From the NCBI GenBank assembly GCA_947452555.1, contig CANGDH010000001.1, forward strand, positions 372,001 to 436,000: a stretch of 64,000 nucleotides of DNA. Direction: 5' to 3'. The translations under genes and the position numbers were made by a program. The stretch comes from Bacteroidota bacterium. Its GTDB lineage: Bacteria > Bacteroidota > Bacteroidia > Chitinophagales > Chitinophagaceae. This document shows positions 29,801 to 49,506 of the stretch, piece after piece (the first letter of the stretch is position 1; each line of letters starts with the position of its first letter). Under the pieces are notes generated by a model. It ran no database searches. It was given only the letters and a program-made list of their open reading frames with translations, and had not been told where the DNA came from.

Positions 29801-32800
29801 TGTAAACGCCTTACCAACAATTAGTACAATTATTAATAGTGCTATTTGTGCTGGTTCAGGTATTGTTTTAACTACTACGGGTGCGGCTACTTATTCATGG
29901 TCACCAAGCACTGGATTAAGTGCAACAAATATTGCTTCTCCAACAGCGAGTCCAAGTACAACTACTGTTTATGCTGTTACAGCTATAGACTTAAATGGTT
30001 GTTCAAATACAGCTTCAACAACCATAACGGTAAATGCATTACCTACCATCACACTAGGTTCAACTACTTCAGTTAATTCAAGAGCAATAAGTTTCAATTT
30101 GCCTTATACAGCTACAACAGGAAGTCCATCAACTTTTAATATATCGACAACATCGCCAAATGCATTGTCTGGATTTACTGCAATTTCTAATGCAAGTTTA
30201 AGTTCAAGTCCAATTGCTATAACGATTCCTGCAAGTGCGGCAGGTACGTATAATTTCAATATTAATGTAACTAATACTACTACTAGTTGTACATCACCTA
30301 ATGTAGGCTTTACAGAAATTATTACATTAGCTCCACCAAGTGGATTAAGCTATACTTCTCCAAATGTGTATACAACAGGGGTTACTATAACAAATCTTAA
30401 TCCAACAGTAACTGGTACTGTGACAAATTATACTATTAGCCCTAGTTTACCTGCTGGCTTAGTGATTAATGCAATTACAGGTATCATAAGCGGCACTCCA
30501 AATTCAGCTTCACCAATTACTACTTATACGGTGACAGCTTCAAACACTAGTGGTTCAGTTACTGCAAATGTTATTATAACAGTTTTAAATAATTCAGTGG
30601 TTCAGCCTCAGGGGGGAATTACTGCTGTTGATTATAAACTACTAACTACCGATTCCGTAAAAATAAAAGTAAATATTACAGCTGGACAAACACCATTTAC
30701 AGTTATTATTTCAAATAGTTTGAATTCGGATATAGATACTGTATTGAATGTTTTAAATGGTGATACATTAACATTTAAACCAATTAGTTCAAGTGCTAAA
30801 TTTACAATCACAAAAATTATTGATGCAAATTCAATAGTGAGAGCTAGTGGATTTACAAAAGACACAACGAAGATTAATATCTTAAAGCCAAATATTGCAT
30901 TAACATTAAAGGCATCTGCTGCTGTAAAACAACCAGACAACTCTTTTAAAACTACCTTGTCATTAAAGATCAAAAATTCGGGTGAACTAGACTTAGGAAA
31001 TGTTCAGGTTAATGCTAATTTAAGTGATGTTTTCCCAGCTGGGATTAATTATAGACTGGATAGTGTAAAAGTGGTAAATGGTAATTTTAGAATTAACCCT
31101 AATTATTTAGGAAATGGTTCGGCTACTAGTCCTTCAAGTATTAATCCAAATAAAGGACTTGTTGCAACTTCAGGTATTAAGTCAAATGCAGTACTCGATG
31201 CGAACTATTTATTCGACAATGGAGCTAATTTAGCTATTAATCAAGAAGGCTTGGTACAATACTATTTGTCAATTGGAGCAACTACACAAAATGTTGTTTT
31301 GAAATTACAATTCGTTTCAACTGGTGCAGGACAATTAACAAATTCAAATGGTATTGTAAGTCAACAAAGTTCTATTGCAGTTTCTGACGATGGTTCAAAT
31401 TTGGCAAAACATCCTAATAATACAAATTCGGGCACCCCATTGCCAACTTATTTACCTTTATTCCCAGTGGAGAAAATTGGAACTTCATTATCAGTAGGTG
31501 CTGCTACAGTTGTATCAGGTGGCTATACTTTCCCTTTTGTATTAAAAATTAAGAACTATGGTAATTTAAATTTAGATAGTTTAGTTATTACACAAAATTT
31601 TGCAAATACATTTACTGCTCCTGACAATGCAACAATTGTGGGAACTCCAACTTTTACAGGTAATTTAGGTCTAAATACTGGCTTCAATGGTTATACTGAT
31701 ACTTTGTTAGTAGACCATAATGGAAAATTAGTAGTGGGGGATAGTGCAACAATATCATATACTTTATTAGTTAGTACCAATAAGACAAGTGCAACATGGC
31801 TGAATCAATTTATTGGGTCAGGCCATTCAACGTTAGATTATACATTAGTTTCTGATAGTTCAACCGCTGGCTCAAATCCAGATCCAAGTGGTGACAATGA
31901 TCCATTAGAGTCTGAGTTAACGAGATTCTATATTAATTATCTTCCACCAGCGCCTCCTACAGTAGACAATAAATTATATTTATATCAAAGTGTTACACCT
32001 TCTACAATAAGTTCTTTGGTTAAATCTTACCCAATTGGAACGGTTCCTGTATGGTGTAATATTGCAACAGCTATTTGTGCTACAACAGCCCCTACAATGC
32101 CAACAATTATTGGTAGATATGTTTATCAATTAAGATCATACGATACTACTTCTAAATTGTATAGTGTTGCTTATGTAAATGATACAATAACAATTAAGCC
32201 TCCAGTTCCTTTGGTAATGGATTCTACCTATATTATTGGTGTTAAAAATAATCCTTTAAATGTTGGAGTTCAAGTAAAAGGAATGACTGGAAGTACTTTG
32301 AATTATTTTTATAAAACAGTTAAACAAAATGCAGTTCCGGTATTAGGAACAATTGCAGGTACTTTAAATTATACTGCTAGTCAAATTGTTAATTCAATTG
32401 AAAGTGATACAACTTCATTTAAAGTTATAATGTTAAATGTCATTGATGTTATTCATTTGCAAAAAATTGCAGGAGAAGCGGTTTTACAATCTAACTCTAC
32501 ATTTAATGTTCCGTTTACATTTGTTGTAAGTAATCTTACTAATAAAATAATGGATAGTGTAGTGATAGTAGATAATTTATTAAATTCAGTATTGTCGCCA
32601 AGTACTTATAGTGTTATAAGTGTAACAAGTACTGGCAAATTAATTGCTAATCCAGTTTTCAATGGTGCTTCAGATCAAATGCTTTCTAAATACACTAGTA
32701 AGTTAGATCCATTTGCAAAAGACACAATTCATTTTGTTATGAATTATGTGCCAAATGGAATTACAGGAATTTTATCTAATACTGCAATCGTTAAGGCAAC

Positions 32801-33176: not shown

Positions 33177-33177
33177 T

Positions 33178-34107
33178 ATGAGAAATAAAATATATTTAAT
33201 TCTAGTAGTTTTTGGACTATTAATGATTCAGGAATCTAAAGGACAGTCTTTACCAATGTATTCTCAATACATGTACAATATGGTAAATATTAATCCGGCA
33301 TATGCTGGTACTAGAGGTGTTCCAAGTTTGTCAGCAATTTGGAGAGAGCAGTGGGTAGGGTTGCCTGGTTCTCCAACAACCAAATCATTTACTTATGATG
33401 CACCTAGCGAAAATAAGAAAGTCGGTTTTGGTATCCAGTTGTATGATGATAAATATGTAAACTACATTAAGAGAACAGGGGTAAACTTGTATTATAATAT
33501 TAAAGTACCAGTTTCAGAAAGAGGGGTCATTAGTTTTGGTTTAAAAGCGGGTATATACAATGATACTAAAAATTTGAATAATACCTATTTAGGAGCTAGT
33601 AGTGCCTATTTGACGGATGTTACCTATGCAAGTAATTTAAATAAAATTGTTCCTTTAGCTGGGGCGGGCGTTTATTATAATGACGATAAATTTTATGCCG
33701 GATTTTCTGCTCCAGACGTTATTACATTTTCAAAAGTAAAGGACTATAGCTCTGACAAGGGACTTTTTCAAGTAAATGAAATACATTACTTTATTACTTC
33801 TGGATATTCATTTGATTTGAATGATGAAGTTCAAGTTAAACCTTCTTTTTTATTAAAAGCAACAAGTGGAGCACCATTAGAAGCAGACTTAAATACGAAT
33901 GTGTGGCTTAAAAATATATTAGGTTTGGGAGTTTCATACAGAACTGCAGAGTCTGTTTTAGGAATGGCGGAAATACAAATTTCACCTCAATTTAGATTTG
34001 GATATGCATATGATATGCCTTTTAAAAGACCTAATTCTCATGAATTATTCTTACGTTATGAGTTCGGTCGTTTATTCCCTAATAACAAATCTTACAAGTT
34101 ATATTAA
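33178..34107 (+). CDS. PorP/SprF family type IX secretion system membrane protein
   Basis: SLPMYSQYMYNMVNINPAYAGTRGVPSLSAIWREQWVGLPGSPTTKSFTYDAP. Confidence 0.93.
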   Translation: MRNKIYLILVVFGLLMIQESKGQSLPMYSQYMYNMVNINPAYAGTRGVPSLSAIWREQWVGLPGSPTTKSFTYDAPSENKKVGFGIQLYDDKYVNYIKRTGVNLYYNIKVPVSERGVISFGLKAGIYNDTKNLNNTYLGASSAYLTDVTYASNLNKIVPLAGAGVYYNDDKFYAGFSAPDVITFSKVKDYSSDKGLFQVNEIHYFITSGYSFDLNDEVQVKPSFLLKATSGAPLEADLNTNVWLKNILGLGVSYRTAESVLGMAEIQISPQFRFGYAYDMPFKRPNSHELFLRYEFGRLFPNNKSYKLY

Positions 34108-34109
34108 TC

Positions 34110-36533
34110 ATGAATAAGAATATTTCAAAATTATTATCAATAACATTAGCTGCTTTACTTTCTGTTAATTGTGTATTCTCTCAAACAACTGATGTCAAAA
34201 AAAGATTACTAGTTAGAGACTCATTGGATTTTAAATTAAGTTCATTTGGTGCTAACAGCGCAGCTGCAGAATTCAACCCTTTACCTTTTAAAGGAGGATT
34301 GTTATATGTTTCTAATAAAAAAACAAATGCCAATATACAAGGATTTAACAAAGTGTATTGGGTACCACAGCATTTATTTGGAATGAGTAAAAAAGACTCC
34401 ACTACTAAGTCTAAATTCAGTTTCAACGATGATTTTACTGCGCCTACTAGTAATGACAATAATATTTTAACGCATTATAGCAGAAGAAAAAGTAGATTAT
34501 TATTAAATGCAGTGGAACAACAATTTTCTGATTTTAATCCAGATCGTTCATTTGCCTTTAATGATTCTAGTAAGTTGGTTGTATATCCTTTATTATCTAG
34601 AAAAAAAATAAATGGTATAAAAAGATGGGAGTTATGGCAGGCGTATTTAAAAAATGGTCGATTGAGTAATGAGAAACGCATTTCTATATCCGACTCTGTT
34701 GCCGACTATTTAAACCCTTTTTTAACATCTAATGCTGATACTTTATATTTTTCAAGTAATAGAGCAGGAGGGAAAGGCGGATTTGATATTTATACATTAT
34801 TTAGAAAAAATGGAATTTGGGAGAAACAACCTGTTTCAATTGATGAAATAAATACAGACGCTAACGAGATTTATCCAGTTGCAAAACTAGATACATTATT
34901 ATACACTTCAGATAGAGTTGGTGGATTAGGTGGATACGATTTATATCAATATGTTAAAGGTTCAAAAATGAATACGAATGTGGGGTATCCATTAAATTCT
35001 AATTTTGATGATTTAGGACTAGTTTCATTAGGTAATCAATATTATCTAACTTCTAATAGACAAGGTTCAGCTGATATTGCTGCTGTGTTGTATAATCCTA
35101 TTTCTATTTCAATTAATGGTCAACTTACCTATAAGAACGACAATCAATTAGTGCCTAATCAAAAGCTTTTTATCTTTGATAAAGACGAGCATGTTTTAGT
35201 TGACAGTATCATTACAGACAAGAACGCATTATATAAATTTACTGCAAAGCCAAATAGAAATTATTTATTTACTACTATAAATGCGGATGGTATTACTGAG
35301 CAAATTGATTTTGCAACTAATGATAACTTAATTCAAAAAGCAGATATTGTATTGAATCTTTTAGGAAGAAGTCCTAAGCAAATAAAAGATTCAATACTAG
35401 ATGTATTAGCAATAGCACAGAAAAAGTATCAAGACAGTATTAACGCAAATTATTTTGCTAATAAATTTGTAGTCTATTTTGGATTTGATAAAAATGTACT
35501 TGTAAATAAAGAAAAACTAGTTTTGGATAGTTTGATATCTAAATTGAAATCACTACCAAATACGTATGCTATTATTGGTGCTTTTACAGATTGTATTGGT
35601 TCTTATAATTACAATTATCAATTGTCTGTTAAAAGAGCAAAATATGTTCTTAATTATCTTAAGTTAAAAGGGATAGACAACAAAAGGTTTGTCACTAATG
35701 GCTATTCAAAAAATTATACTATTACCCCTTGTTATGTAGGTGCAAAAAATGCATCTCAACAGAGTAATCGTCGTGCTGAAATAGTTTTAAGTTTAGAACA
35801 AAAAACTAATTGGGCATTATTGGAAAAAGAAAGAGGGGATAAATTCTATTCTGTAGTTAGCAGTAATCAAAATTTTAAACCAATTGAATTAAATATAAAA
35901 CCTAAGACAATTGTTCCTGTAATTAAAGTTATTGAGAAGAAAAAAGATACAGTTGTTAAAGTTGTTAAACCAATAGTAATAAAGAATAAAGATGCTGTTG
36001 TGAAAATTATTACTCCTGTAATTGTAGCTAAGAAAAAAGACACCGTTTCAAGAAGTCAAATAATAGTGGCTACGGCTTCAACATATAAAGAGGAATATAG
36101 TAAAGAAGAAATTCTTAAGGCTTTAGATTCTTTAGCAACTTTAAAGAAGGAACAAGAGCGTATTATTGAATACATGACAAAACGTATAAATAAGAAGCCT
36201 ATTGACATATTTGTGAGTTCTGACACTGTTTCTATTGAATTATATGATAATGGTATTCATGACAAGGATTCAGTTTCAATAATTTATAATAATAGAATTT
36301 TAGTAGATAAGCAAGAGTTAAAAGTGAATAAACCAATTAAATTCAAATTAAAGATTGATAAGAATTTGAAAAATAATGAACTTGTAATGGTCGCAGAGAA
36401 TCTTGGAGCTGAACCCCCAAATACAGCTGTTATGTTTATTACCGAGAAGTCGGGTAAAAAACAACAAGTGTTGTTAGCTACCGATATGACCCATAATGAA
36501 GTTGTATACTTTATAAGGATTGGGAAGCAATAA
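34110..36533 (+). CDS. OmpA family protein with PD40-like repeats and a long C-terminal extension
   Basis: DTLYFSSNRAGGKGGFDIYTL, LLYTSDRVGGLGGYDLYQY; OmpA segment FVVYFGFDKN...AFTDCIGSYNYNYQLSVKRAKYVLNYL...SNRRAEIVL. Confidence 0.9.
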   Translation: MNKNISKLLSITLAALLSVNCVFSQTTDVKKRLLVRDSLDFKLSSFGANSAAAEFNPLPFKGGLLYVSNKKTNANIQGFNKVYWVPQHLFGMSKKDSTTKSKFSFNDDFTAPTSNDNNILTHYSRRKSRLLLNAVEQQFSDFNPDRSFAFNDSSKLVVYPLLSRKKINGIKRWELWQAYLKNGRLSNEKRISISDSVADYLNPFLTSNADTLYFSSNRAGGKGGFDIYTLFRKNGIWEKQPVSIDEINTDANEIYPVAKLDTLLYTSDRVGGLGGYDLYQYVKGSKMNTNVGYPLNSNFDDLGLVSLGNQYYLTSNRQGSADIAAVLYNPISISINGQLTYKNDNQLVPNQKLFIFDKDEHVLVDSIITDKNALYKFTAKPNRNYLFTTINADGITEQIDFATNDNLIQKADIVLNLLGRSPKQIKDSILDVLAIAQKKYQDSINANYFANKFVVYFGFDKNVLVNKEKLVLDSLISKLKSLPNTYAIIGAFTDCIGSYNYNYQLSVKRAKYVLNYLKLKGIDNKRFVTNGYSKNYTITPCYVGAKNASQQSNRRAEIVLSLEQKTNWALLEKERGDKFYSVVSSNQNFKPIELNIKPKTIVPVIKVIEKKKDTVVKVVKPIVIKNKDAVVKIITPVIVAKKKDTVSRSQIIVATASTYKEEYSKEEILKALDSLATLKKEQERIIEYMTKRINKKPIDIFVSSDTVSIELYDNGIHDKDSVSIIYNNRILVDKQELKVNKPIKFKLKIDKNLKNNELVMVAENLGAEPPNTAVMFITEKSGKKQQVLLATDMTHNEVVYFIRIGKQ

Positions 36534-36584: not shown

Positions 36585-37034
36585 ATGAAGAGAATTGAAA
36601 GACATAGAGCCATTTTAGGGGTAGACAATAAGGCAACTTTAAGTGATTTAAAGAAGGTTTATCGTAAGATCATGATGGAATGGCATCCTGACAAGTTCCA
36701 AGAGAGTGAAGAGGCTAAAAAAGGTGCAGAAGAGAAATCTACTAAACTAATTGCTTCTTATCACTTTTTAGTAAGTGTGCACCCTGAAACTCATGAAGCT
36801 ACATTGGCTGAATATACTGCGACTACAACAGATGCTAGTATTAATGATTTTGAGTTTAAATCTGAGATTTTGCGTGTTGTATTTTCAGACGGGAGTGAAT
36901 ACGAATATTATGGCGTTCCAAAAGCAATCTATGTAAAATTAGTTAATGCAGATACTCCAGACAGATTCGCTCGTCGACATATCTACATGAACTACTTATA
37001 TAGAAGTACCAATAAGATAGTTTCAGGCCAATAA
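36585..37034 (+). CDS. J-domain (DnaJ-like) protein fused to a KTSC-like domain
   Basis: HRAILGVDNKATLSDLKKVYRKIMMEWHPDKFQ (HPD present); C-terminal VVFSDGSEYEYYGVPKAIYVKLVNADTPDRFARRHI. Confidence 0.8.
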   Translation: MKRIERHRAILGVDNKATLSDLKKVYRKIMMEWHPDKFQESEEAKKGAEEKSTKLIASYHFLVSVHPETHEATLAEYTATTTDASINDFEFKSEILRVVFSDGSEYEYYGVPKAIYVKLVNADTPDRFARRHIYMNYLYRSTNKIVSGQ

Positions 37035-37661
37035 TTTATCTTCTTTCTTTGTTAAAAATTTGTGTACTTCGTCATCACTAATTTGTTCGAAGTCTTCATA
37101 ATAATCCCCAATTGCATGTAAGTTGGATGGACTTATTAATGAAATAATTTCATCTGCAAAAGGCATCAATTTAGCTAAGGTACTTTTAGCGCCAACAGGC
37201 GCGGCAATAATGATTTTTTTAGGGTAACTTTTTCTTATTTGCTGAATAGCAGCAATCAAGGAATTGCCAGTCGCTATTACGTCATCTACGATTATTACAA
37301 TCTTATCTTCTAAGTCTTCTGGCGTTTTATTTCCTAAGAATTTAGTTTTCATTTCTATTAGTCTTTTTCTAATGACTTTTAATTCCTCTTGAATATATAC
37401 GTCAAGTATTTTCTCATGTGGTGAAATAAAATAGTCTGATAGGGTAGCTGCTCCAATTGCATATTCTTTGTTAAATGGGTGACCCAATTTTTTTGCAAAA
37501 ATTAAATCTAATGGACAATGTAGATATTCAGAAACGATATAACCAATTGGCACACCTCCCCTTGGTAACGTTAAAACAACACAATGCTCATGTCTGTATT
37601 TTTTTAATTGTGTAGCTAAAATTTTAGCTGCTTCAATTCTATTTTTAAAAACATAATTCAT
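37023..37661 (-). CDS. Phosphoribosyltransferase family protein
   Basis: VVLTLPRGGVPIGY and PRPP-loop-like IVIIVDDVIATGNSLIAA. Confidence 0.88.
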   Translation of the reverse strand: MNYVFKNRIEAAKILATQLKKYRHEHCVVLTLPRGGVPIGYIVSEYLHCPLDLIFAKKLGHPFNKEYAIGAATLSDYFISPHEKILDVYIQEELKVIRKRLIEMKTKFLGNKTPEDLEDKIVIIVDDVIATGNSLIAAIQQIRKSYPKKIIIAAPVGAKSTLAKLMPFADEIISLISPSNLHAIGDYYEDFEQISDDEVHKFLTKKEDKLLA

Positions 37662-37671
37662 AGGATTTTTT

Positions 37672-38196
37672 TTATAATCTTAATAAAATTGCTTTTCTTG
37701 CTTTCTCATTAATTTCTTGTTCTGCAATATCGGTGAGCTCATTATCAATTTGAATTTCATCCATTTCTGCAGCATGGAATAATGCGGCCATTTTTGTCAT
37801 ATCTAATTCCTTCGCAAAAGAAGCCGCAGTCCCATACATACTTAATTTGAACAAATTTATTTGTTGAATCGCTTCAATTAAACAAGCATCTTTCACTTCA
37901 TGATCCTTACATAATGCTATTTTTTCATTTGCTTCGTCAATAAAAGCTTTCATGATTCTGTTATTAACACTCAATACTGCAATTTTTCCTTGAAGAACAT
38001 ATTTTTCAATATGTCTTATATGGTCTTCGGCAAAATCGATATATTGATCTATAATTGTTTTTAACTTAACAGCGCTTGCTTGAACTTTCCAATGTGTTAA
38101 TACATGCTTTAATTGGGCTTCTGCATTACTAAATTTATGTACATCATAGTCTAGTAAATTATGTAAAGTAACTATGGGCTGATTTTCGTTTTTCAT
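37672..38196 (-). CDS. DUF892 / YciF-like ferritin-like protein
   Basis: LHNLLDYDVHKFSNAEAQL...; overall helical composition and E/H pattern of the family. Confidence 0.65.
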   Translation of the reverse strand: MKNENQPIVTLHNLLDYDVHKFSNAEAQLKHVLTHWKVQASAVKLKTIIDQYIDFAEDHIRHIEKYVLQGKIAVLSVNNRIMKAFIDEANEKIALCKDHEVKDACLIEAIQQINLFKLSMYGTAASFAKELDMTKMAALFHAAEMDEIQIDNELTDIAEQEINEKARKAILLRL

Positions 38197-38365
38197 AAAA
38201 TAATTTTTTAGTGAAGGAATTATTTATTGAAATTAAATACAGTTAGAATTTTCAGCTAATACTATTATGAGTATTAAATGTATAATAGTAGTGAATTTTT
38301 TTTTGAACTTTATTCTGATGATTATATGAGTTCTGTAACATTTTAAGCTTGCCGGATTGATTGAT

Positions 38366-38388
38366 AAAATGTTTAAATTAAACATTTT
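38366..38388. promoter_or_regulatory. 23-bp perfect palindrome
   Basis: AAAATGTTTAA-A-TTAAACATTTT, 170 bp upstream of the DUF892-like gene. Confidence 0.4.
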
Positions 38389-38496
38389 AAATTAGCACAA
38401 AAGGTATATGTTATAGCGATGAATTTAAATCTAAATTTTTTAGATTAGAAGAAGTTAAACGTATAATTTCTAGTTTAGAAAATAGCTAACTATGAG

Positions 38497-39858
38497 TTAT
38501 TTTCTAAACATTTTCTCTATTATTTTTGAATTTTCTTCATTAATAATATAATTCATGTACCTGGCATCTTCCAATGACCGAATTCGTTGGATTAAAATTG
38601 AATCTACATTACAAATATTATTGAATTTATGGTTTATACGATTGATTGCATCAGTTCGTATACTTTTCTGGATTTCAATAGATTTCTTTTTAGTACCTAA
38701 ATAGCTATTAATATCATCTACAGTTAAAAACTTGCCATGTTTATTTTTTTCTATTAATTGCTCAATTAAAGCTTTTTCAATATTATTAAATGAGTTATTA
38801 TTTATTTCTTGTTTTATTATAGGGTTGCAAATTAAAATTTCAGTGTCTTTTTTACTATTTTTTTTAGATACAATAATTTTTGAGGCGCTAATGAGAAATA
38901 ATATTAGTACACTTAATCCTAATATTCCCCATTTTGTATTATTATAAATTGGTTCATATAGACTGTATGATTCTAGCTTAAAGTCATTAATTGAAATTGG
39001 TATAGTCTTTAAACTTGTGTCAGGATAATTTGTATAGAATATTTTGCCATCTTTTTCAAATGTAATTTGTAATGTAGTGCCTGATTTATCTAATAAAACT
39101 TCTAATATATGTTCATTTTTAAGTTTATAAACTTTATTATCATTAAAGTTTAAAAGTAAAATATTTCTTTCTGAATTAATTATTGTTCCGTTCAAACTAG
39201 GTAAGTTTACCATGAAATCTCCACTTATTTTTATTTTATTATTCAGCCTCCCAAGTATAATATTTATTTTTTTTATTATATCAAATTTAACAATATTGAA
39301 ATTTGGTGAATTTAAATCAGACTCCTCGTTAATGTTGGGTGGTTCAATATAATATAATACATTATTTTCAAGTTGAAAGTTTTGTATATAATTGATAGTG
39401 TTTCTAATGTTTTTAACTTTGGATATACTCCATTCTTTGGAAGTGTTAAAATGACGAAGCTGCCCATTATTATGCCAAAAACCATAACCACCAAATGAAT
39501 AGATTGTATCATTTAATGCAAAATCTATTGAATAAAATGAATTACCAAAATAGTAAGTAGAATCAATTCTGTCAAATTGTAGCACATTTTTAGTTAAATT
39601 AACTGCTTTAAAAACTTTCCCAGTACCGTCTATTAATATGTAAAGTCCATTTTTTGTTTTTATAAGTTTTTGAGAAGCTTTTGTTTGCATTATAAATTCT
39701 GGCAATATATTTAAGCTTTTTGTATTTGAAATTGAAGATATATTCCCCTTGTAATTATATAAATAGCTTAAAATTGGAGTAGACGATATTTTGTAGTTTT
39801 GTGCATCCATTTCAAACATTGCAAATTGTGATAATAATATTAATATTATTTGTTTCAT
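38497..39858 (-). CDS. Membrane-spanning sensor-like protein of unknown family
   Basis: Signal peptide; ~290-aa exported region; one TM (WGILGLSVLILFLISASKIIV); cytoplasmic tail with HTH-like LTVDDINSYLGTKKKSIEIQKSIRTDAINRINHKF. Confidence 0.6.
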   Translation of the reverse strand: MKQIILILLSQFAMFEMDAQNYKISSTPILSYLYNYKGNISSISNTKSLNILPEFIMQTKASQKLIKTKNGLYILIDGTGKVFKAVNLTKNVLQFDRIDSTYYFGNSFYSIDFALNDTIYSFGGYGFWHNNGQLRHFNTSKEWSISKVKNIRNTINYIQNFQLENNVLYYIEPPNINEESDLNSPNFNIVKFDIIKKINIILGRLNNKIKISGDFMVNLPSLNGTIINSERNILLLNFNDNKVYKLKNEHILEVLLDKSGTTLQITFEKDGKIFYTNYPDTSLKTIPISINDFKLESYSLYEPIYNNTKWGILGLSVLILFLISASKIIVSKKNSKKDTEILICNPIIKQEINNNSFNNIEKALIEQLIEKNKHGKFLTVDDINSYLGTKKKSIEIQKSIRTDAINRINHKFNNICNVDSILIQRIRSLEDARYMNYIINEENSKIIEKMFRK

Positions 39859-40087
39859 TCTTAAATGTAGTTAATCTATTATTTACTAATGTTTATTTCG
39901 AAGTATTTCTTTCTCTATAATAAGACATTTAATATACCTTAATATATAATAATATATTATACAATACTTTAACTCGTTTATTTTTTCCAATACTAATAAA
40001 CAACATAAAATCATGATTTACTTCATTTTATGTAGAATTTGCATCTTATAGGTAAAAATATACTGCCTATTAAAAAGAATGTTAATG

Positions 40088-40115
40088 ATTGAGTCTTCTG
40101 GGGGGAAGGCTCAAT
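40088..40115 (+). promoter_or_regulatory. Hairpin in the leader of the FG-GAP lipoprotein gene
   Basis: ATTGAGTCTTC-TGGGGG-GAAGGCTCAAT, 11-bp stem with one wobble, ends 33 nt before the ATG. Confidence 0.45.
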
Positions 40116-40148
40116 CAACATTTAATTTGAAATTAAATATTATTATAT

Positions 40149-41669
40149 ATGAAGTTTTTGATTTTTGTAATAAGTTTCCTTTCATTAATATCATGTTCAA
40201 AAATTGATAAAGTTTCAAGTTTATTAAAGTCTGATCCAATTGTAAAAGAAGATTCTATTAAAATAACTGTTACTCCTGATATTTCTGTAGGTACTAATAA
40301 TATAAATAAAGATTCATTAAGTTTAATTATATATGTAAATTCTAATATCCCAGCACTTGGCCTTACCTATTCATTAGAAGTTAAAAGAAATGAAACAAAT
40401 ATAATCACATTCAAATTCGATTCTACAAGTTTATCAAATTCAATCAATGTAAAATTGGGTGGTTTTACAATCAAAGGTAACTATACTATTAAATTGACAG
40501 TTACTTCTAAATCTAATATTAATAACTCAGTCATTCAAAATTTTGTAATAAATAGAAATAGAATTTATAAGAATTATTTAAAAACTTCCTACGAGCTTTC
40601 AAATTTTGATAGTTGGTTTTCTTCGGCACAATTATATAAAGAAGATGGCTCAAAATATAATAACAATCCATTTATAGATGAACAGTCTACTCAGTTAGAT
40701 ATTGACGGAGATGGACAGGAAGATGTATTTTATTATGAAGGATATGATTTAAATATTAATCCTACACCCAACCCGCCTCCATCTATTTTCATGAATAATG
40801 GACTTATTTTAAAACAAACTCCATGGGTTGATGCTAAAATAAAAGAACCCCATGGTACGAAAATTTTAATTGGTGATTTTAATAATGATTCCTTACCTGA
40901 TTTATTTTCATTAGTGGCTGTAGATCCACCGAATAATTCTCCTGCTGGGTATCTAAATACATTTGACTTTTGTAATTTATTAATAAATTCCCCTTCAGGT
41001 TTTACTAAAGAGAAAGACTATACCGATCAAGGATTTTGGTATTCGGGTTGCTCTGGAGATATTGACAATGATGGTGATTTAGATATAATTGCCTTTAATT
41101 TTCACAATCAATCAAATGGAGTTAAAAGTAGAATAATGTGGAATGACGGAAATGCAAATTTTACAATTGATTTTAATGGTATTGGTGATATTCCTGTTGT
41201 TGATCAATCTGAATTAGTTGATATAAATAATGATGGCTTCTTGGATTTGGTTATTAATTTCCATCCTAATGGAGTTAATAGAATTAATGACTTTAGGATT
41301 TTGTATGGTAATGGGAAAGGTTTTAGTTTAATAAATTCTTCTATAATTAATATTTCTGGGGATTTATTCTTACAAAATTTAGATTTTGTGGATATAGACG
41401 GTGATGGTGTAAAAGAAATTATACCAAGTGGTAATTATATAAATTTAAGTGGGTCCCCAGTTTACTTTATTTCATTTTATAAATCGTATGATAAAGGGAA
41501 AATATATTTAGACAAATCAAATCAGTTTATAGATTATAATACTGCAGGTAGGTTCTATCATATTATAGTTCAAGATATTGATAAAAATGGTTTGATAGAT
41601 ATATTCTCTAGCGATAAAAAAGATAATATTCGATGGGAATGGAATGGATCAAAATTTATAAAAAAATAA
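40149..41669 (+). CDS. Lipoprotein with FG-GAP/VCBS-type DxDxDG repeats
   Basis: Lipobox LISC; DIDGDGQEDVFYYE, IGDFNNDSLPDLFS, DIDNDGDLDIIAF, DINNDGFLDLVINF, DIDGDGVKEIIPS, DIDKNGLIDIFSS. Confidence 0.85.
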   Translation: MKFLIFVISFLSLISCSKIDKVSSLLKSDPIVKEDSIKITVTPDISVGTNNINKDSLSLIIYVNSNIPALGLTYSLEVKRNETNIITFKFDSTSLSNSINVKLGGFTIKGNYTIKLTVTSKSNINNSVIQNFVINRNRIYKNYLKTSYELSNFDSWFSSAQLYKEDGSKYNNNPFIDEQSTQLDIDGDGQEDVFYYEGYDLNINPTPNPPPSIFMNNGLILKQTPWVDAKIKEPHGTKILIGDFNNDSLPDLFSLVAVDPPNNSPAGYLNTFDFCNLLINSPSGFTKEKDYTDQGFWYSGCSGDIDNDGDLDIIAFNFHNQSNGVKSRIMWNDGNANFTIDFNGIGDIPVVDQSELVDINNDGFLDLVINFHPNGVNRINDFRILYGNGKGFSLINSSIINISGDLFLQNLDFVDIDGDGVKEIIPSGNYINLSGSPVYFISFYKSYDKGKIYLDKSNQFIDYNTAGRFYHIIVQDIDKNGLIDIFSSDKKDNIRWEWNGSKFIKK

Positions 41670-41674
41670 AATAT

Positions 41675-42784
41675 ATGAAAATAAATAGAATTTTATTATT
41701 TATGTTAATCGTTACATTAATTGCATGTCAAAAACAGGTAGATTACACACCACAGTTAAATGATTTAAATAGTAATATACGGGCCTTGCAAAAGAGCAGA
41801 GATTCTTTGGCCACTGCCTTATCTCAAAGTAATCTAAATATTTTAACCTTACAAAAGAATAACGATTCGTTAAGCAAATCTATAAAAAGTACTGATTCTT
41901 TATTGAATAAATTGAATATTTCTAACTCAGCTATTTTTAAATCTTTAGACTCAATCAAGTTACAGCTTTCTACAATGAATGTTCAAATATTATCATTAAC
42001 AATACAAATGAATAGTGCAAATGCGGATATTTTATCAATTAATAATCAAATATCAATTCTGAATTTACAATATAATAATTTGTCAAAACTCTTTAATAAT
42101 TTAATACTGCAAACGTCAATTTCAAATGGTCTTGTTGCATACTTTCCATTAAACGGAAATGCAAATGATAGTAGTAGCAATGGGAATAATGGGGTTGTAA
42201 ATGGAGCATCTTTAACTGCAGATAGGTTCGGAAATCCGAATTCAGCTTATAGTTTTGATGGCTATCACGAGATTTCAGCACCTAGTAAAGATTATTTAAA
42301 TATACTTGGTGATATGTCAATTTCGGCTTGGTTTTTTGCTTCAGGTTTTCCGACATTCAGGACATGCTATACAATTTTAACCAAAAGAGTTTCTATATCT
42401 GCAGGGATGCCATATGATTTATGTATAAATTATCAATATGGTTATAATAATAATAGTGATTATAATAAACTTATGTTTGCTTCTGATTCTTATTATCCAA
42501 ATTATCAATATCTTCAATCATCAACAAATGCGACCAATAATAAATGGTCAAACATTATTGCAACAATTAGTGGTACTAATTTGAAAATATATTTAGATGA
42601 AGTATTAGTTTTAGATACCATTGTAAATAATTCATTAAGAGTTGCAAATGTTAGTTCATTAATTATTGGAGGAGGTGCAAGACCAGATAAGCCAAGTGAA
42701 CAATTTATTGGAAATCTTGATGACATCAGATTATACAATCGAACATTGACTCAATCTGAAATATCTTATTTGGCATCGCATTAA
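41675..42784 (+). CDS. Lipoprotein with coiled coil and LamG/concanavalin-like domain
   Basis: MKINRILLFMLIVTLIACQKQ lipobox; SL/NDSL coiled coil; LVAYFPLNGNANDSSSNGNNGVVNGASLTADRFGNPNSAYSFDG ... NLDDIRLYNRTLTQSEI. Start trimmed from 41633. Confidence 0.85.
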   Translation: MKINRILLFMLIVTLIACQKQVDYTPQLNDLNSNIRALQKSRDSLATALSQSNLNILTLQKNNDSLSKSIKSTDSLLNKLNISNSAIFKSLDSIKLQLSTMNVQILSLTIQMNSANADILSINNQISILNLQYNNLSKLFNNLILQTSISNGLVAYFPLNGNANDSSSNGNNGVVNGASLTADRFGNPNSAYSFDGYHEISAPSKDYLNILGDMSISAWFFASGFPTFRTCYTILTKRVSISAGMPYDLCINYQYGYNNNSDYNKLMFASDSYYPNYQYLQSSTNATNNKWSNIIATISGTNLKIYLDEVLVLDTIVNNSLRVANVSSLIIGGGARPDKPSEQFIGNLDDIRLYNRTLTQSEISYLASH

Positions 42785-43194
42785 TTATTTTTATAAATCC
42801 AAAGGTGAATTGATATGACTCAAACCATAATTCACATCCAATTGATAACAAATAGTATATATGCTTAAAAAATATGCTAAGACATCTTTGGCACTATTTT
42901 CAGCATTAGATTCCAAATTTACGAAGGTATAGTGCTAGTTATAATTATAAAGCTAAGATTATAGAGTAACTTAACTTTAAATGATTTGAAAGTTTTTTGT
43001 TAGATGAGTAATCTGCTTTTGATTCCTACCTATGTAGTTGCATTTATTTTATAAATTCTACTGTATTTCTAAGTTTATCCTTTATAGTACATTTTATATC
43101 TAAATTATATAATTATACATTCTAGTTTATTTAAATTATATCGTAATTTCATTTGCTGTTCCCCTGCAGCTCTTCAGTTTTAATTTATAATTTT

Positions 43195-43716
43195 ATGAAA
43201 GGGGTAATTTATATACTATTTTTCTCAACATTGACAATTCAGTTGAAATGTCAATCCATAACACCATTTACTGTTAATATAGCGGGTTTTACAGGGCAGC
43301 AAAATGGGTATTCATTAACAGTAAGTACAGGTGAAACTATTTCTATTACAGATTTTAAAACTGCTAATGGTGTTAGTTTAAGTAGTGGTTTTTTGCAGAA
43401 CAATCCTCCTATTGTAACAGGGATTGAAGATGTATTGTCTAAGATAGGCTCTAATGAAGTTTTAATTAGTCCAAATCCCACTTCAACATTTACTAATTTA
43501 ATTTCAAACTTTAGTAGTCCCGGTCAAATACAATATCAAGTTTTAGATATAAATTCTAAAATACTATACAGAAGTCAGCCATTAAATGGGTTGAACAAAC
43601 TACAAACTAAGATTGAACTATCATCGAATCCTTCTGGTACTTATTATATACAAGTATTCTTTAAGCCTAGTAATGGAATTGCTAAAACAGGAATCTATAA
43701 AATTATAAAATTATAA
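43195..43716 (+). CDS. Small secreted protein with T9SS type A C-terminal sorting domain
   Basis: Signal peptide; SPNPTSTFTNLISNFSSPGQIQYQVLDINSKILYRSQPLNG...SGTYYIQVFF...KIIKL. Start trimmed from 43153. Confidence 0.82.
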   Translation: MKGVIYILFFSTLTIQLKCQSITPFTVNIAGFTGQQNGYSLTVSTGETISITDFKTANGVSLSSGFLQNNPPIVTGIEDVLSKIGSNEVLISPNPTSTFTNLISNFSSPGQIQYQVLDINSKILYRSQPLNGLNKLQTKIELSSNPSGTYYIQVFFKPSNGIAKTGIYKIIKL

Positions 43717-43718
43717 TC

Positions 43719-46700
43719 ATGAATAGTATAAAGAAATATATTTTAATTGTATTTACTATTTGTATTGCATCAACCACATTTGCTCAGGGAATTAATTTTC
43801 AAGGAGTAGCACGTTCTGCAAATGGAATAATTATCGCTGGCTCTAACATTAGTTTAAGACTGTCTATTTTGAGTAAAAGTGTTGATGCAACACCTGAGTT
43901 TGTTGAGACTAAAACAGTGATAACAAATACACAAGGTATATTTTCAATCGTTGTAGGGGATGCAGCTAATAATGCAGTTATTGGAAGTTTTAAATCTATT
44001 AATTGGGCGGATGCACCAAAGTTTTTGAAAGTAGAAATGGACCCTTCTGGAGGAACAAATTATATATCTATGGGTATCACACAATTACAATATGTTCCAT
44101 ACTCATTTTATAGTTTAGGAGTAGATGCATCAAATATAAGTGGTACGTTGTCTGTCGAAAAAGGGGGTACTGGTGTAGCTAGTTTAGCTGCTTTAAAATC
44201 CGCTCTTAATATTATAAATACAACAAATGATAATGGTTCATTTATATCAGATATATCTGTTAATGGACATACTTTTGGTAGAGGTAAGAATAATGATGAA
44301 ACAAATCTAGCAATTGGGAAAAGTGTCTTATCATTAGGTACTTCTGGCAGAGCTAATGTAGGAATTGGTTATGATGCATTAAGTAACAATACATCTGGTT
44401 ATTCAAATACATCAATTGGAACACAATCCCTTTTTTCAAATACGTTAGGTGGGCAAAATGTTGCAATTGGTTACAGGGCATTGTATACTAATTCAAATGC
44501 AATTTCAAATATAGCAATTGGTAATAGTTCTATGTATTCTAATACAACTGGCAGTGAAAATATTAGTATTGGTATCACTTCAATGTATAATAATCTAAAT
44601 GGACACAGTAATGTTTCTGTAGGTTCATCTTCATTATATGATAATACAATTGGACATTCAAATGTTTCTATAGGTAGTGGTTCATTAAGAAAAAATACTA
44701 TCGGTTTTAATAATGTCTCAGTTGGAGAAATGGCTTTAAATTATAATGTTGCTAATAATGGTAATACTGCAATCGGTGCGTTTGCTATGACACGTTCAGA
44801 TAATCGATCTGATGGCATATTTTCTGCAAATACAGCAGTTGGAAGTGGGGCGTTAATGGGTGGAATTACCCCTTCATTAAATATTGGGATAAGTAATACT
44901 GTTGTTGGTGCTCAATCTTTATCTTTTAATACTAGTGGTTCCGGCAACTCTGCATTTGGTGTCAATGCATTGTTAAATAATACAACAGGAAGTAATAATG
45001 TTGCATTAGGGTATCAAACATTAAATTCAAATACTACAGTTGGCGATTTAGTTGCTATTGGATCAAATTCATTAATGAGAAATACTACAGGCTTTGGAAA
45101 TACCGCAATTGGTTCTTATTCTATGCAAAACAATACTACTGGAGATAGAAATACAGCGTTAGGTGATGCTGCATTAAATAATAATACTACTGGAGTTTAT
45201 AACACTGCAATAGGTGCAGAAGTATTAAGAGCAAACACTATAGGGGCAAGAAATACCGGAGTAGGTATGTATACTTTATTAAATAATACAGTAGGCAACA
45301 ATAATACTTCTTTAGGTATGTATGCTTTAAAGGATAATACTATAGGAGGAGGAAATATTGCTTTGGGCTCGGATGCATTAAGTTATAATGTTGCAAATAA
45401 TGAATCAATTGCAATAGGGAATAATGCAATGCAGTATGCAAATAGTACTAGCAGTGGTATTACAACTGGGAATATAGCAGTTGGGCATTATTCATTAATG
45501 GGTAGTACTACTTCATCAAATAATATTGGTACAATGAACACTGCAATCGGTTATCAAACATTAAGGAATAATACAAGTGGATATGGAAATGCAGTTGTGG
45601 GATGGAATTCATTAGTTAATAATAATACTGGTTATTTGAACTCGACTTTAGGACAAGAAGCATTATTAAACAATACGACTGGGGGTAGAAATATTGCAAT
45701 CGGATACCAGGCACTTGCTAATAATGTCTCTAAGAGTGGATCTATTGCAATTGGTTATTATGCTATGAATAATGCAGACAATAGTTTATCTGGAGCCTCA
45801 ACTGGTAATGTTGCAATTGGAGAATCTTCATTAAAAGGAAGTTCAACACCAGCAAATAATACTGGAACTAATAATACTGCAGTTGGTAGTAATACATTGA
45901 TGAATAATACTTCTGGTAGCAATAATTCAACTTTTGGTTTATCAGCTTTAACATCAAATACTACTGGTACAGAAAATACAGCAATTGGATTTCAAGCTTT
46001 ACAATCCAATACAACAGGTAATCAAAACTTGGCTTTAGGAAAAGGCGCATTAAACTCAAATACGACTGCTTATTACAATGTAGCGCTAGGTATAGATGCT
46101 TTATATTCTAATACAACAGGGACAAACAATGTTGCAGTTGGTGATGGTGGATTGTATAATAATATTTCTGGTATTAATAATACAAGTTTTGGGAATCAGA
46201 CATTAAGTTCAAATACAGCTTCAAATAATACAGGAGTTGGTTTTCAGGCGTTAAAATCTAATAATACTGGTACAAAAAATAATGCATTTGGTCAAGGTGC
46301 GTTACTTTCTAATATATCCAGCAATTCAAATATTGCAATTGGAAATTTGGCTTTAGAAAAGCATTTAACAGGAGATGGTAGTATAGGAATAGGAGAAATG
46401 GCTTTAAATTCAGATGTAACTGGAGTTGGGAATGTTGGAATTGGATTTTATTCATTGATGTCAAATACAAGTGGTGGAAGTAATACTGCAGTTGGGAATA
46501 ATAGCATGAATTTAAATACAACTGGAACAGGTAATTCTGTTTTGGGAAATGCTTCTTTAATGAATAATACCACCGGCAACAACAATACTGTAATTGGTAA
46601 TTATACTTTGGTAAATAATACAACTGGAAGTCAAAATACAGTAATTGGTAAAGATGCGGGACTTTCTTTAATAAATGGAAGTAATAATACATTGTTGGGT

Positions 46701-47432
46701 TATAATTCAGATGTTGCCTCAAATAGTTTGTCAAATACTACAGCTATTGGCAATGGAGCAATTGTTTCAGCTTCTAATACAATTCAATTAGGAAATACAT
46801 CAATAACTGATGTTAAAACAAGCGGTACAATTACTGCTGCAGGATATAAAATCGCGGGTGGTACTTCGACACAAACGCTTATGGCAGATGGGAGCACAGC
46901 TGCATTGGGAGCATCCACTTTTATACATTATATAGGCGAATTATTTGGGGGAGGTATTGTAGTAGCAGTATGGAAAGCTTCAGGAGTTGAACATGGTTTG
47001 ATTGCTTCTAAAATTGATTTAAGTTCAGGTATAGCATGGAGTAATGTAACAAATAGTGCCACAGGAGCTACAAGCCCAAGTAATGGGCAAACAAATACAA
47101 CTGCAATAATAAATCAAGGTGGTCATACAAATGGTGCTGCAAAATTATGTGATGACTATATTAATGCTGATTATGGAACTGGTATTTTTTCTGATTGGTA
47201 TTTACCTGCTTATTTTGAGTTAAGAACTTGTTTTAATTCTGCAATGATAGTAAATAAAATTTTAGGTGACACTGATGGATTTAAGTTCATATTTTCATAT
47301 CCAGGTATATATTGGTGTTCTTCAGAATATGATTTAGGATTTAGTTTAAATTTATCATTTATGGAGGGCACAAGTAATACTGGACAAGGGAAAGGGTCAT
47401 TATCTAGAGTGAGAGCTGTTAGGCAATTTTGA
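43719..47432 (+). CDS. Giant repeat protein: YadA-head-like 17-residue repeats with DUF1566/Lcl-like C-terminal domain
   Basis: Signal peptide; many copies of NTAIGxxALxxNTTGxxN; C-terminus SDWYLPAYFELRTCFN...YWCSSEY...SRVRAVRQF. Confidence 0.82.
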   Translation: MNSIKKYILIVFTICIASTTFAQGINFQGVARSANGIIIAGSNISLRLSILSKSVDATPEFVETKTVITNTQGIFSIVVGDAANNAVIGSFKSINWADAPKFLKVEMDPSGGTNYISMGITQLQYVPYSFYSLGVDASNISGTLSVEKGGTGVASLAALKSALNIINTTNDNGSFISDISVNGHTFGRGKNNDETNLAIGKSVLSLGTSGRANVGIGYDALSNNTSGYSNTSIGTQSLFSNTLGGQNVAIGYRALYTNSNAISNIAIGNSSMYSNTTGSENISIGITSMYNNLNGHSNVSVGSSSLYDNTIGHSNVSIGSGSLRKNTIGFNNVSVGEMALNYNVANNGNTAIGAFAMTRSDNRSDGIFSANTAVGSGALMGGITPSLNIGISNTVVGAQSLSFNTSGSGNSAFGVNALLNNTTGSNNVALGYQTLNSNTTVGDLVAIGSNSLMRNTTGFGNTAIGSYSMQNNTTGDRNTALGDAALNNNTTGVYNTAIGAEVLRANTIGARNTGVGMYTLLNNTVGNNNTSLGMYALKDNTIGGGNIALGSDALSYNVANNESIAIGNNAMQYANSTSSGITTGNIAVGHYSLMGSTTSSNNIGTMNTAIGYQTLRNNTSGYGNAVVGWNSLVNNNTGYLNSTLGQEALLNNTTGGRNIAIGYQALANNVSKSGSIAIGYYAMNNADNSLSGASTGNVAIGESSLKGSSTPANNTGTNNTAVGSNTLMNNTSGSNNSTFGLSALTSNTTGTENTAIGFQALQSNTTGNQNLALGKGALNSNTTAYYNVALGIDALYSNTTGTNNVAVGDGGLYNNISGINNTSFGNQTLSSNTASNNTGVGFQALKSNNTGTKNNAFGQGALLSNISSNSNIAIGNLALEKHLTGDGSIGIGEMALNSDVTGVGNVGIGFYSLMSNTSGGSNTAVGNNSMNLNTTGTGNSVLGNASLMNNTTGNNNTVIGNYTLVNNTTGSQNTVIGKDAGLSLINGSNNTLLGYNSDVASNSLSNTTAIGNGAIVSASNTIQLGNTSITDVKTSGTITAAGYKIAGGTSTQTLMADGSTAALGASTFIHYIGELFGGGIVVAVWKASGVEHGLIASKIDLSSGIAWSNVTNSATGATSPSNGQTNTTAIINQGGHTNGAAKLCDDYINADYGTGIFSDWYLPAYFELRTCFNSAMIVNKILGDTDGFKFIFSYPGIYWCSSEYDLGFSLNLSFMEGTSNTGQGKGSLSRVRAVRQF
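44290..46800 (+). repeat. Degenerate 51-bp (17-codon) coding repeat array
   Basis: Protein register NTAIGFQALQSNTTGNQ / NLALGKGALNSNTTAYY / NVALGIDALYSNTTGTN; boundaries approximate. Confidence 0.85.
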
Positions 47433-47616
47433 TTATAAATTTTTAAGGTTGTATTTTTTATTTATTCAATTTCTGGGAAACAATTTAAATGTACAATGTA
47501 TTTTGAAATATCATTTTTACATTGGGACAAATCAGGGACAAATAAATGATTAATAAGTGATATTCAAAAAGCGCCAATGAGTAAGTTGTGTGGAAAACCA
47601 GACGTAAACAAATAAA

Positions 47617-47642
47617 AAACCCCCGTTGTTAAACGAGGGTTT
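47617..47642 (-). terminator. Rho-independent terminator after tRNA-Leu(CAA)
   Basis: Minus strand AAACCCTCGTT-TAAC-AACGGGGGTTTTTT. Confidence 0.85.
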
Positions 47643-47643
47643 G

Positions 47644-47727
47644 TGCCCAGAGGGGGAATCGAACCCCCACTACCTTGCGATAACCAGATTTTGAGTCTAG
47701 CGCGTCTACCAATTCCGCCATCTAGGC
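47644..47727 (-). tRNA. tRNA-Leu (anticodon CAA)
   Basis: GCCTAGA/TCTGGGC acceptor, CTAGA-CTCAAAA-TCTGG anticodon arm, variable arm TATC-GCAA-GGTA, GGGGGTTCGATTCCCCC; CCA not encoded. Confidence 0.95.
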
Positions 47728-47768
47728 ATTTTGAATGCCTTAACATTCCGACGGGATGCAATATTACG

Positions 47769-48272
47769 TTAATGATGGAATTCTGCCAAAATACGATCAA
47801 GGTATTTTTTCTTATAATAATATTCTTTTATTTGCAACATTGCTTTTTCGGGAATAGAATTGACCTCATCACTATCCAAGTACGCTTTAATAGGACTGAG
47901 AATGTCATTTTGAAGGATATTAATTTGAGTTAAAATATGTTCTTTTTGTTCAGGTGTAACCGCGTCCATCCAGCCTTCATTTAGTTCCATCATCTCCATC
48001 AAGAAATCGGGACTTAGGTTGTACTTCTCGTCACTTTGTATTTTACCGGTAAGTTCCAAAACATAAGGTAGGACTAGCTCCTTATTATTTAACAAGGTAA
48101 ATCCTTTATTTGCCATTGCAGATCGTTCAAGTGCTTCTTCTTGCTCAAATGGGCTTTCTTGAGTAAACTTGTCTGGATGTGAAGCTCTCTGTATATCCAT
48201 AAAAGCAACACGTAATTTGGCTGCGTCTACTTGAAAACTAATAGGGAGTCCGAATAATTCAAAAAAGTTCAT
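47769..48272 (-). CDS. hscB: Fe-S cluster assembly co-chaperone HscB
   Basis: MNFFELFGLPISFQVDAAKLRVAFMDIQRASHPDKFTQ; ELTGKIQSDEKYNLS. Start trimmed from 48383. Confidence 0.88.
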   Translation of the reverse strand: MNFFELFGLPISFQVDAAKLRVAFMDIQRASHPDKFTQESPFEQEEALERSAMANKGFTLLNNKELVLPYVLELTGKIQSDEKYNLSPDFLMEMMELNEGWMDAVTPEQKEHILTQINILQNDILSPIKAYLDSDEVNSIPEKAMLQIKEYYYKKKYLDRILAEFHH

Positions 48273-48306
48273 TTTAATGTTTTGTATATTGTGTAAAATT
48301 ACCCAA

Positions 48307-49506
48307 ATGCCGGTATTAGCACTTATTAAAGAGGGAAAAGTTCCAAGCGATAATAGAGTTGCTTTGACTCCAAAACAATGCAAATGGTTAATGGAAACTA
48401 ATCCTGGGTGTGAAATTATTGTAGAATCCTCAGATATACGTTGTTTTAAAGATCAGGAATATCTCAATGAAGGTATTAAAATTGTAACTGATATTGCAAG
48501 TGCTGATATATTATTTGGTATAAAGGAAGTTCCTAAAGAAAAGCTAATTCCTAATAAAACATACTTATTTTTCTCACATACTAAAAAAGCGCAATTATAT
48601 AATCAAGCTTTGTTCCATGCAATGATGGATAAAAACATTACACTTATTGATTATGAATGTTTGGAACATGAGGATGGTCAAAGATTAATTGGCTTTGGTT
48701 TTTTTGCAGGTATAGTTGGTGCTCATAATGGTATAATGGCTTATGGGAATAGAACAAAACAATTTCATTTAGGAAGAGTTAAAGCAGTGAAAGATTATTT
48801 GGAATTAATCCATACTTATTTTGGATTAAAATTACCTCCAATTAAAATTGCAATTACAGGTTCAGGTAGGGTGGCACATGGTATTTTAGAAATTATGAAC
48901 TTAATGGACGTTCAACAAGTAGAGCCAGATGAATACATAAGTCGTACTTACAGCTATCCTGTGTATGTTCATTTAAAAGGTCGTGATTTGTATTTACGCA
49001 ATGACACTAATAGTTATGAAAGAAATGACTTTCATGAACATCCAGATAAATACAGATGTACTTTTAATGCATATTTAAAGCATACGCATATTTTAATGAA
49101 TGGTATTTATTGGGAACCTGGGATTCCTCCATTATTTACACAAGAAGATTTAAAAGACGATGATTATAATCTAACTACCATTGCAGATATCACAGACGAT
49201 GCACATGGAAGTGTCCCATGTAATTTAGGTGACGCTAGTTCGGATGATCCAATTTATGGTGTTAATATTGAAACTTTTAAGAAGGAAGCGCCTTATCATC
49301 ATAATTGTATTGACGTAATGGCGGTTGGTAATTTACCTAATGAATTACCAAGAGATGCTAGTCGTTTTTTCGGAGAGCAATTAATAAAGTATGTCTTATC
49401 TGATTTATTAATGGGAGGAAATAAAATTATTAAAAGGGCTACAATGCTTGAACATGGTCTACTTAATGCTCATTACAATCATTTAGCAATATATGCTAAA
49501 CACTAA
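48307..49506 (+). CDS. Saccharopine dehydrogenase / alanine dehydrogenase (AlaDH/PNT, Lys1-like) family protein
   Basis: LALIKEGKVPSDNRVALTPKQC, IAITGSGRVAHGILEIM, DVMAVGNLPNELPRDAS. Start trimmed from 48277. Confidence 0.82.
   Translation: MPVLALIKEGKVPSDNRVALTPKQCKWLMETNPGCEIIVESSDIRCFKDQEYLNEGIKIVTDIASADILFGIKEVPKEKLIPNKTYLFFSHTKKAQLYNQALFHAMMDKNITLIDYECLEHEDGQRLIGFGFFAGIVGAHNGIMAYGNRTKQFHLGRVKAVKDYLELIHTYFGLKLPPIKIAITGSGRVAHGILEIMNLMDVQQVEPDEYISRTYSYPVYVHLKGRDLYLRNDTNSYERNDFHEHPDKYRCTFNAYLKHTHILMNGIYWEPGIPPLFTQEDLKDDDYNLTTIADITDDAHGSVPCNLGDASSDDPIYGVNIETFKKEAPYHHNCIDVMAVGNLPNELPRDASRFFGEQLIKYVLSDLLMGGNKIIKRATMLEHGLLNAHYNHLAIYAKH

Follow-up and report, generated by a model that had tools for sequence, protein, structure and literature searches.

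A kelch-propeller, winged-helix membrane protein as a candidate regulator of divergent surface lipoprotein genes in Bacteroidota, next to a separate fibre gene pair

In Bacteroidota, propeller sensors are known from hybrid two-component systems and from proteins in which a propeller and a transmembrane (TM) segment are joined to a LuxR domain, and the respective genes often lie beside those for surface proteins; knowledge of the on/off control of surface adhesins and lectins in this phylum comes mostly from polysaccharide utilisation loci. The product of gene A of the locus described here has the same predicted topology, with a periplasmic propeller, a membrane helix and a cytoplasmic output, and differs from these sensors in that it lacks kinase, receiver, LuxR and AraC domains, the predicted output being a winged helix attached directly, and in that its propeller is of the kelch rather than the two-component-regulator type.

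The other closest described designs are the membrane-bound one-component and co-component regulators CadC (PMC5430869), VtrA/VtrC and ToxR/ToxS (PMC9214523). Like the regulators of the ToxR/CadC type, A is predicted to join an extracytoplasmic sensor, through a single membrane-spanning helix, to a winged helix in the cytoplasm, and in both cases the regulator often adjoins the gene for a target or partner. Unlike them, A shows the reversed order, with the sensor at the N-terminus and the DNA-binding-type domain at the C-terminus, combines a kelch sensor with a MarR-like fold, comes from Bacteroidota and has no sequence match to those families.

Gene A is encoded in a window of 64,000 nucleotides, the whole stretch of DNA analysed, from a Chitinophagaceae genome of 2.28 Mb that is ~90% complete. 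The features of the locus are as follows.

38497-39858, minus strand: gene A, open reading frame of 453 aa; predicted signal peptide, kelch-like propeller, membrane helix and winged helix
38500-38805, minus strand: winged helix-turn-helix domain of A, residues 352-453; predicted fold
39859-40148, no strand: A/B divergent intergenic region, with degenerate motif copies
40086-40117, plus strand: hairpin of 14 bp within the gene B leader; single occurrence in the genome
40149-41669, plus strand: gene B, FG-GAP repeat lipoprotein, 506 aa, lipobox LISC, FG-GAP_3 E 1.2e-17
41675-42784, plus strand: gene C, lipoprotein with coiled-coil stalk and LamG domain, 369 aa, lipobox LIAC
42785-43194, no strand: non-coding C-D gap of 410 bp, between two likely transcription units
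43195-43716, plus strand: gene D, small exported protein with a T9SS type A tail, 173 aa from the ATG
43719-47432, plus strand: gene E, repeat fibre, 1237 aa, starting 2 bp past the D stop
47643-47727, minus strand: tRNA-Leu(CAA), right border, 210 bp past E; Rfam match

An earlier note on this DNA had listed five adjacent genes with exported or membrane-bound products, in a block that stops at a tRNA-Leu. All five open reading frames and the tRNA border were recovered, as were the assignments of B as an FG-GAP lipoprotein, of C as a coiled-coil/LamG lipoprotein (Laminin_G_3, E 6.2e-18) and of D as a small protein with a T9SS sorting domain (TIGR04183, 23.6 bits, cut-off 23). Signal-peptide, lipobox or membrane-helix patterns are present in all five products, and the export call is based on these patterns rather than on a dedicated predictor. 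The tRNA was the sole match in the Rfam scan. The ATG of C lies 5 bp past the B stop and the D-E spacing is similarly short, with the 410-bp gap probably separating two transcription units, giving A (leftward), B-C and D-E as likely units; a TTG start that would extend D to 187 aa is the less likely alternative. The GC content of the A-D part is 23-29%, compared to about 30-39% in the flanks. Left of the block (23814-36533, plus strand), genes for an exported protein of 3120 aa, its C-terminus being T9SS type B-like, and for PorP/SprF-like and OmpA/PD40 proteins read as a typical type B cargo cluster; within this sequence reading, the last gene alone was scanned.

Surface-exposed lipoproteins of Bacteroidota carry the export signal C-X-K-(D/E)2-X, or QKDDE (PMC5080379). 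B and C share the lipobox with these proteins, and the residues from the cysteine onward in C (CQKQVD, a loose fit) and in its homologue at locus L026 (CQKDDD) resemble the signal, those of B being CSKIDK; the window locus differs from the described cases in having no SusC/SusD pair. Both B and C may be exposed at the cell surface.

The AlphaFold model of A (pLDDT 87.7, alignment of 47 sequences) consists of a signal peptide, a kelch-like propeller (residues ~20-300), a single long helix at 307-342 that is predicted to cross the membrane and is followed by K-rich residues, and a C-terminal winged helix (about 359-452) modelled as helix-helix-helix-strand-strand-helix; modelled alone, the latter domain (residues 352-453) reaches pLDDT 92.3 and pTM 0.83. 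The N-terminal part resembles kelch domains (Foldseek E 1e-6), and kelch or propeller Pfam models match several distant relatives of A (best E 4e-10). For the winged helix, nearly all of the top PDB matches found with Foldseek are MarR-type proteins, with weak E-values of at least 0.016 and TM-scores of ~0.55. Neither the whole protein nor the winged helix is covered by a Pfam or NCBIfam model, no Pfam family recurs among 34 members for the winged helix and none matches MarR, the resemblance to that family being one of fold alone. The DNA-binding-type domain lies at the C-terminal end, A has no match to the OmpR-type Trans_reg_C family of Pfam, and no histidine kinase or receiver models of Pfam match A or its relatives. 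Pfam matches to VtrC and Sigma70_r1_1 were weak, below the cut-off and limited to one member, and were discarded. In the family alignment, invariance is confined to residues of the kelch blade motif and of the winged helix, among them those of its K/R-rich third helix and of the wing motif LI.R..D..D.R...Y.I, which we take to resemble the wing of MarR.

The description of A as sensor-like in the earlier note fits the periplasmic-type propeller but is incomplete, the last 95 residues being a predicted winged helix-turn-helix. On these models, A looks able to act as a periplasmic sensor connected by an inner-membrane helix to a cytoplasmic DNA-binding domain; the putative DNA binding is deduced from the fold, the conservation and the motif enrichment described below. 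Judging from the predicted structures, the A family is one of membrane-bound one-component regulators with an unusual kelch sensor and a reversed domain order.

Homologues of A were identified in 31 of 399 genomes of the family Chitinophagaceae, and the window genome itself encodes three paralogues, one of them at 52% identity. Across the phylum, 29 of 396 genomes (~7% of the sampled Bacteroidota) encode relatives with a GGYG[FY]W-type motif, several of these relatives having the complete architecture. The named relatives come from Chitinophagaceae, Sediminibacterium and unclassified Bacteroidetes, all of them metagenome-assembled genomes (MAGs), and the sample labels point to mostly lake or freshwater habitats. 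The literature covered, mainly that outside subscription journals, yielded no description of a kelch-TM-winged-helix family, and A apparently belongs to a regulator family that is found across Bacteroidota and has no name. Five large relatives of the kelch sensor (840-870 aa; L300, L304, L305, L308 and L309) end in an output region that differs from the short winged helix and is presumably SARP-like, so that outputs have apparently been swapped on the same sensor type. One same-genus sensor gene (L090, 8154-9135, minus strand) is broken into fragments, either frameshifted or decayed.

The neighbourhoods of the sensor genes were surveyed in 112 nonredundant Chitinophagaceae loci. At 12 of these, the gene divergent from the sensor encodes a LamG protein, mostly a stalked lipoprotein. 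Among the 16 LamG open reading frames located within 6 genes of a sensor, 14, in those 12 loci, occupy the divergent -1/-2 position (14 of 173 such slots, compared to 2 of the 852 remaining slots in the same range; Fisher p 8.5e-10). The first LamG model had been built from such divergent neighbours and was biased toward them, so we repeated the search with a model made from sequences outside the divergent position; the counts were then 9 of 173 versus 3 of 852 (p 1.3e-5), with two of the 3 being seeds of the model. On the sensor tree, the sensors with a LamG partner do not cluster: their 12 rows require 11 changes, of which starred branches force 10. The distances between sensors correlate with those between the LamG domains (Mantel r 0.58, p 0.00045, 11 pairs), a correlation that is equally expected under plain co-inheritance without physical contact. 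In six loci, the window included, a coiled coil forms the stalk of the lectin-like protein; the stalk appears by eye to be Fn3-like in three others and is short in two.

The divergent partners at other loci are likewise of surface type and include an Lcl_C lipoprotein that passes the curated cut-off of PF07603 (L080), a Fib_succ_major protein (L140), an Ig-repeat protein of 1825 aa that carries a T9SS tail (L183), a LamG/fn3 protein of 2191 aa (L182) and a He_PIG protein (L171). As many as 41 of the 112 sensors form one conserved orthogroup that is divergent from two recurring genes, which on our reading of the sequences are presumably a PhoU-like gene and a gene for a PiT-type transporter; this PhoU-linked group (L119, L120, L122, L126 and others) could possibly function in phosphate or envelope regulation. 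Further sensors adjoin housekeeping genes. Because the LamG partner is present in 12 of the 112 loci alone and many sensors lie beside unrelated genes, the lectin is not the sole target, and the pairing is a recurrent special case among the sensors rather than a rule.

The divergent intergenic regions upstream of the sensor genes in the homologous loci share the element TAACCTA/TAGGTTA. The density of AGGTTA/TAACCT is 2.59 per kb in 45 sensor regions versus 0.21 per kb in 126 control divergent regions drawn from the same loci, an enrichment of ~12-fold. When sensors were collapsed at 45% identity, 12 of 35 groups contained the motif, compared to 2.1 expected (p ~5e-6); at 40% identity, the support is weaker (7 of 29 groups, 1.7 expected, p 0.001). 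The strand bias of the motif is 25 to 1, 12 of 25 TAACCTW sites are located 75-78 bp upstream of the sensor start, and five of the LamG loci contain a second site, which takes the form AGTAACCT and is found 45-82 bp upstream of the lectin gene. The PhoU-linked group had been left out of the motif search, and the motif is present in 37 of its 41 intergenic regions, which are related by descent; in the PhoU-linked loci printed, TAACCT/AGGTTA often lies 66-69 bp from the sensor start. In both L079 and L068, the spacing between two TAACCT sites is exactly 87 bp; in the four loci linked to an M16 peptidase (L029, L074, L112 and L114), it is 24 bp.

We regard TAACCTA/TAGGTTA as a candidate operator of the sensor. 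The motif is nearly always found in one orientation, so it could instead serve as an element of the sensor gene promoter. In the window, the A/B region holds degenerate copies only (TATACCTTA near 39934 and TATAGGTA...TGCCTATTA near 40048-40073), which is the main weakness in applying the regulator model to this locus. Among the palindromic motif models that were tried, the half-site AGGTTA alone was robust, and the window scored poorly under most of them; a genome-wide regulon defined by the exact palindrome TAGGTNATNACCTA was likewise abandoned, there being, with one mismatch allowed, a single site in the window genome, away from the sensors. The leader of gene B contains the hairpin TGATTGAGTCTTCTGGGGGGAAGGCTCAATCA, unique in the genome, with an RNA fold z-score of -5.2, and a leader hairpin of comparable strength also precedes the Lcl_C partner gene of L080 (z -4.0); most partner leaders have no counterpart of the two hairpins, and a conserved leader RNA was rejected.

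Taken jointly, these observations lead us to read A as a membrane one-component regulator of itself and of B and C, with D-E as a separate surface pair, a reading to which we assign a probability of about 0.62. The kelch propeller would sense a periplasmic cue, possibly a ligand, and the signal would pass through one inner-membrane helix to the MarR-like winged helix in the cytoplasm, which would most likely bind the A/B intergenic region. A would thus control its own gene along with the divergent B and C, by either activation or repression. C is predicted to be a LamG lectin raised on a coiled-coil stalk from an outer-membrane lipid anchor and, together with the FG-GAP lipoprotein B, would probably constitute the surface or envelope output for binding of glycans or particles, with a putative role in adhesion. 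In the second module, E would form a long fibre with a carbohydrate-binding-type tip, and D may aid the export or anchoring of E.

We consider it unlikely, albeit the most probable alternative, that A regulates mainly itself and a wider regulon, with the lectin and lipoprotein genes being incidental, often-exchanged neighbours in a variable region. The motif keeps a constant position with respect to the sensor start, 100 of the 112 sensors have no LamG neighbour while 41 lie beside the PhoU/PiT-type genes, and the locus is a variable spot within the genus, all of which is compatible with incidental neighbours. Under the same assumption, however, one has to explain the concentration of LamG genes at the divergent position and not elsewhere nearby, the pairing across all clades of the sensor tree along with the co-divergence of the two proteins, and the second copy of the motif near the lectin gene in five LamG loci; these features speak against incidental neighbours.

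That the C-terminal domain of A is a cytoplasmic protein-interaction domain and the shared motif a promoter element for another factor appears improbable: the winged-helix model is confident, MarR-type DNA-binding proteins make up almost all of the PDB matches listed, and the basic third helix and the wing are conserved. In favour of this reading are the lack of a sequence match to a known DNA-binding family, the weak Foldseek E-values and a motif that is one-directional and, in the window, degenerate.

Under regulation of B and C by A, a widespread regulator for which neither Pfam nor NCBIfam has a family would, with its lectin-like partner and candidate operator, make up a directly testable one-protein sensing route. 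A further extension, which we find doubtful, is that the family represents a phylum-wide class of contact or ligand sensors in which a winged helix reads out a periplasmic kelch propeller directly through the inner membrane. In a subset of these, the sensor would be coupled to stalked lectin lipoproteins, whose ligand-bound state would be sensed by the propeller, such that attachment would be converted into surface-protein expression in one step, without a phosphorelay or a sigma/anti-sigma relay.

The earlier note had proposed that the five genes make up one locus, with synteny as a check. In three same-genus genomes (G999, G1003 and G991), a DnaJ-like gene near HscB and the dehydrogenase-like, methyltransferase-like and SdhB genes are present as in the window; A-E are missing, and other small genes occupy the gap. 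The OmpA/PD40 flank is also kept in same-genus relatives that lack A-E. Two relatives that are nearer by HscB identity encode other exported proteins past HscB, after which the contig ends. The loss of A-E between retained flanks largely fits the refuting pattern named in the note, that of genes occurring independently of one another in relatives. Because same-genus relatives lack the block, a conserved five-gene system is rejected; the A-E site is best seen as a variable insertion spot, and the block consists of two recurring modules, namely A with a divergent LamG lipoprotein, and D with E. A surface-sensing or adhesin role, as suggested in the note, is a fair reading, although the five genes form two separately conserved modules and not one system; the combination had been considered unfamiliar as a named system, and indeed none was found. 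The interval between the DnaJ-like gene and tRNA-Leu/HscB (37023-48383 in the window) holds differing small genes in L354, L355 and L356. A tRNA-borne integrative element was also considered, given that the 3' end of tRNA-Leu faces the block, but no second copy of this end was found in the window.

A single dedicated surface apparatus made of all five products (a coat, adhesin or contact sensor) is the least probable reading, given that, despite the adjacency of five genes each with an export or membrane signal and the Lcl_C domain common to the tip of E and the L080 partner, the identical five-gene set was not seen at any other locus, relatives with these flanks lack the block, 410 bp separate C from D, and D-E pairs occur family-wide without the sensor.

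The E protein consists of a conserved N-terminal domain, repeats with a period of 17 residues (about 42 copies of N-x-[AVST]-[ILV]-G) and a C-terminal Lcl_C-like domain that had previously been overlooked; residues 1100-1235 match PF07603 over the full model with E 1.4e-4 and 22.6 bits, below the curated cut-off of 34.9. The likeness to YadA heads noted previously is loose: given the 17-residue period and the lack of matches to the YadA_head and membrane-anchor models of Pfam, we dropped the interpretation of E as a YadA adhesin, which has no Pfam support. At its C-terminus, E matches none of the sorting-tail models TIGR04183, TIGR04131 and PF18962, and the scans detected no TANFOR or toxin domain. 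Lcl homologues have been noted in the Fibrobacterota-Chlorobiota-Bacteroidota (PMC11162425); like the Legionella Lcl, the E fibre ends in a carbohydrate-binding domain of the Lcl_C type, as far as the match below the curated cut-off goes, and differs from it in having a 17-residue repeat rather than collagen as the stalk and a T9SS-tailed partner.

The N-terminal domain of E is encoded in 52 of 120 genomes of the family, with eight copies in the window genome. Directly upstream of 38 of 50 E-family genes, at a median distance of 34 bp, lies a small gene of 124-196 codons on the same strand; the small gene of L217 is unlike D, which leaves a D-like upstream gene in 37 of the 50. In the D-family alignment, which includes the D protein of the window, 34 of 39 sequences have a type A T9SS tail (E 0.01) and 2 of 39 a type B tail, and the members share the N-terminal motif N..GG...WS.GE...T.G.LQP. 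D-E is a conserved gene pair that apparently has not been described. TANFOR toxins adjoin genes for T9SS-tailed proteins, and T9SS export of the tail-less protein has been suggested (PMC7073777). The D-E pair is similar in that D carries a T9SS tail and lies beside the large, exported, tail-less E, and distinct in that E has no toxin domain and D represents a defined family of ~175 residues encoded directly upstream. The D-E pair suggests a general route whereby large tail-less surface fibres may rely on a small T9SS-tailed partner.

Besides the window, D-E pairs were found near a sensor in four surveyed loci only, three of which share one related genomic background, so the D-E and sensor modules are probably neighbours and not partners. 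The stalks and tips of the E-family proteins differ, and include collagen, DUF5907 and Peptidase_S74.
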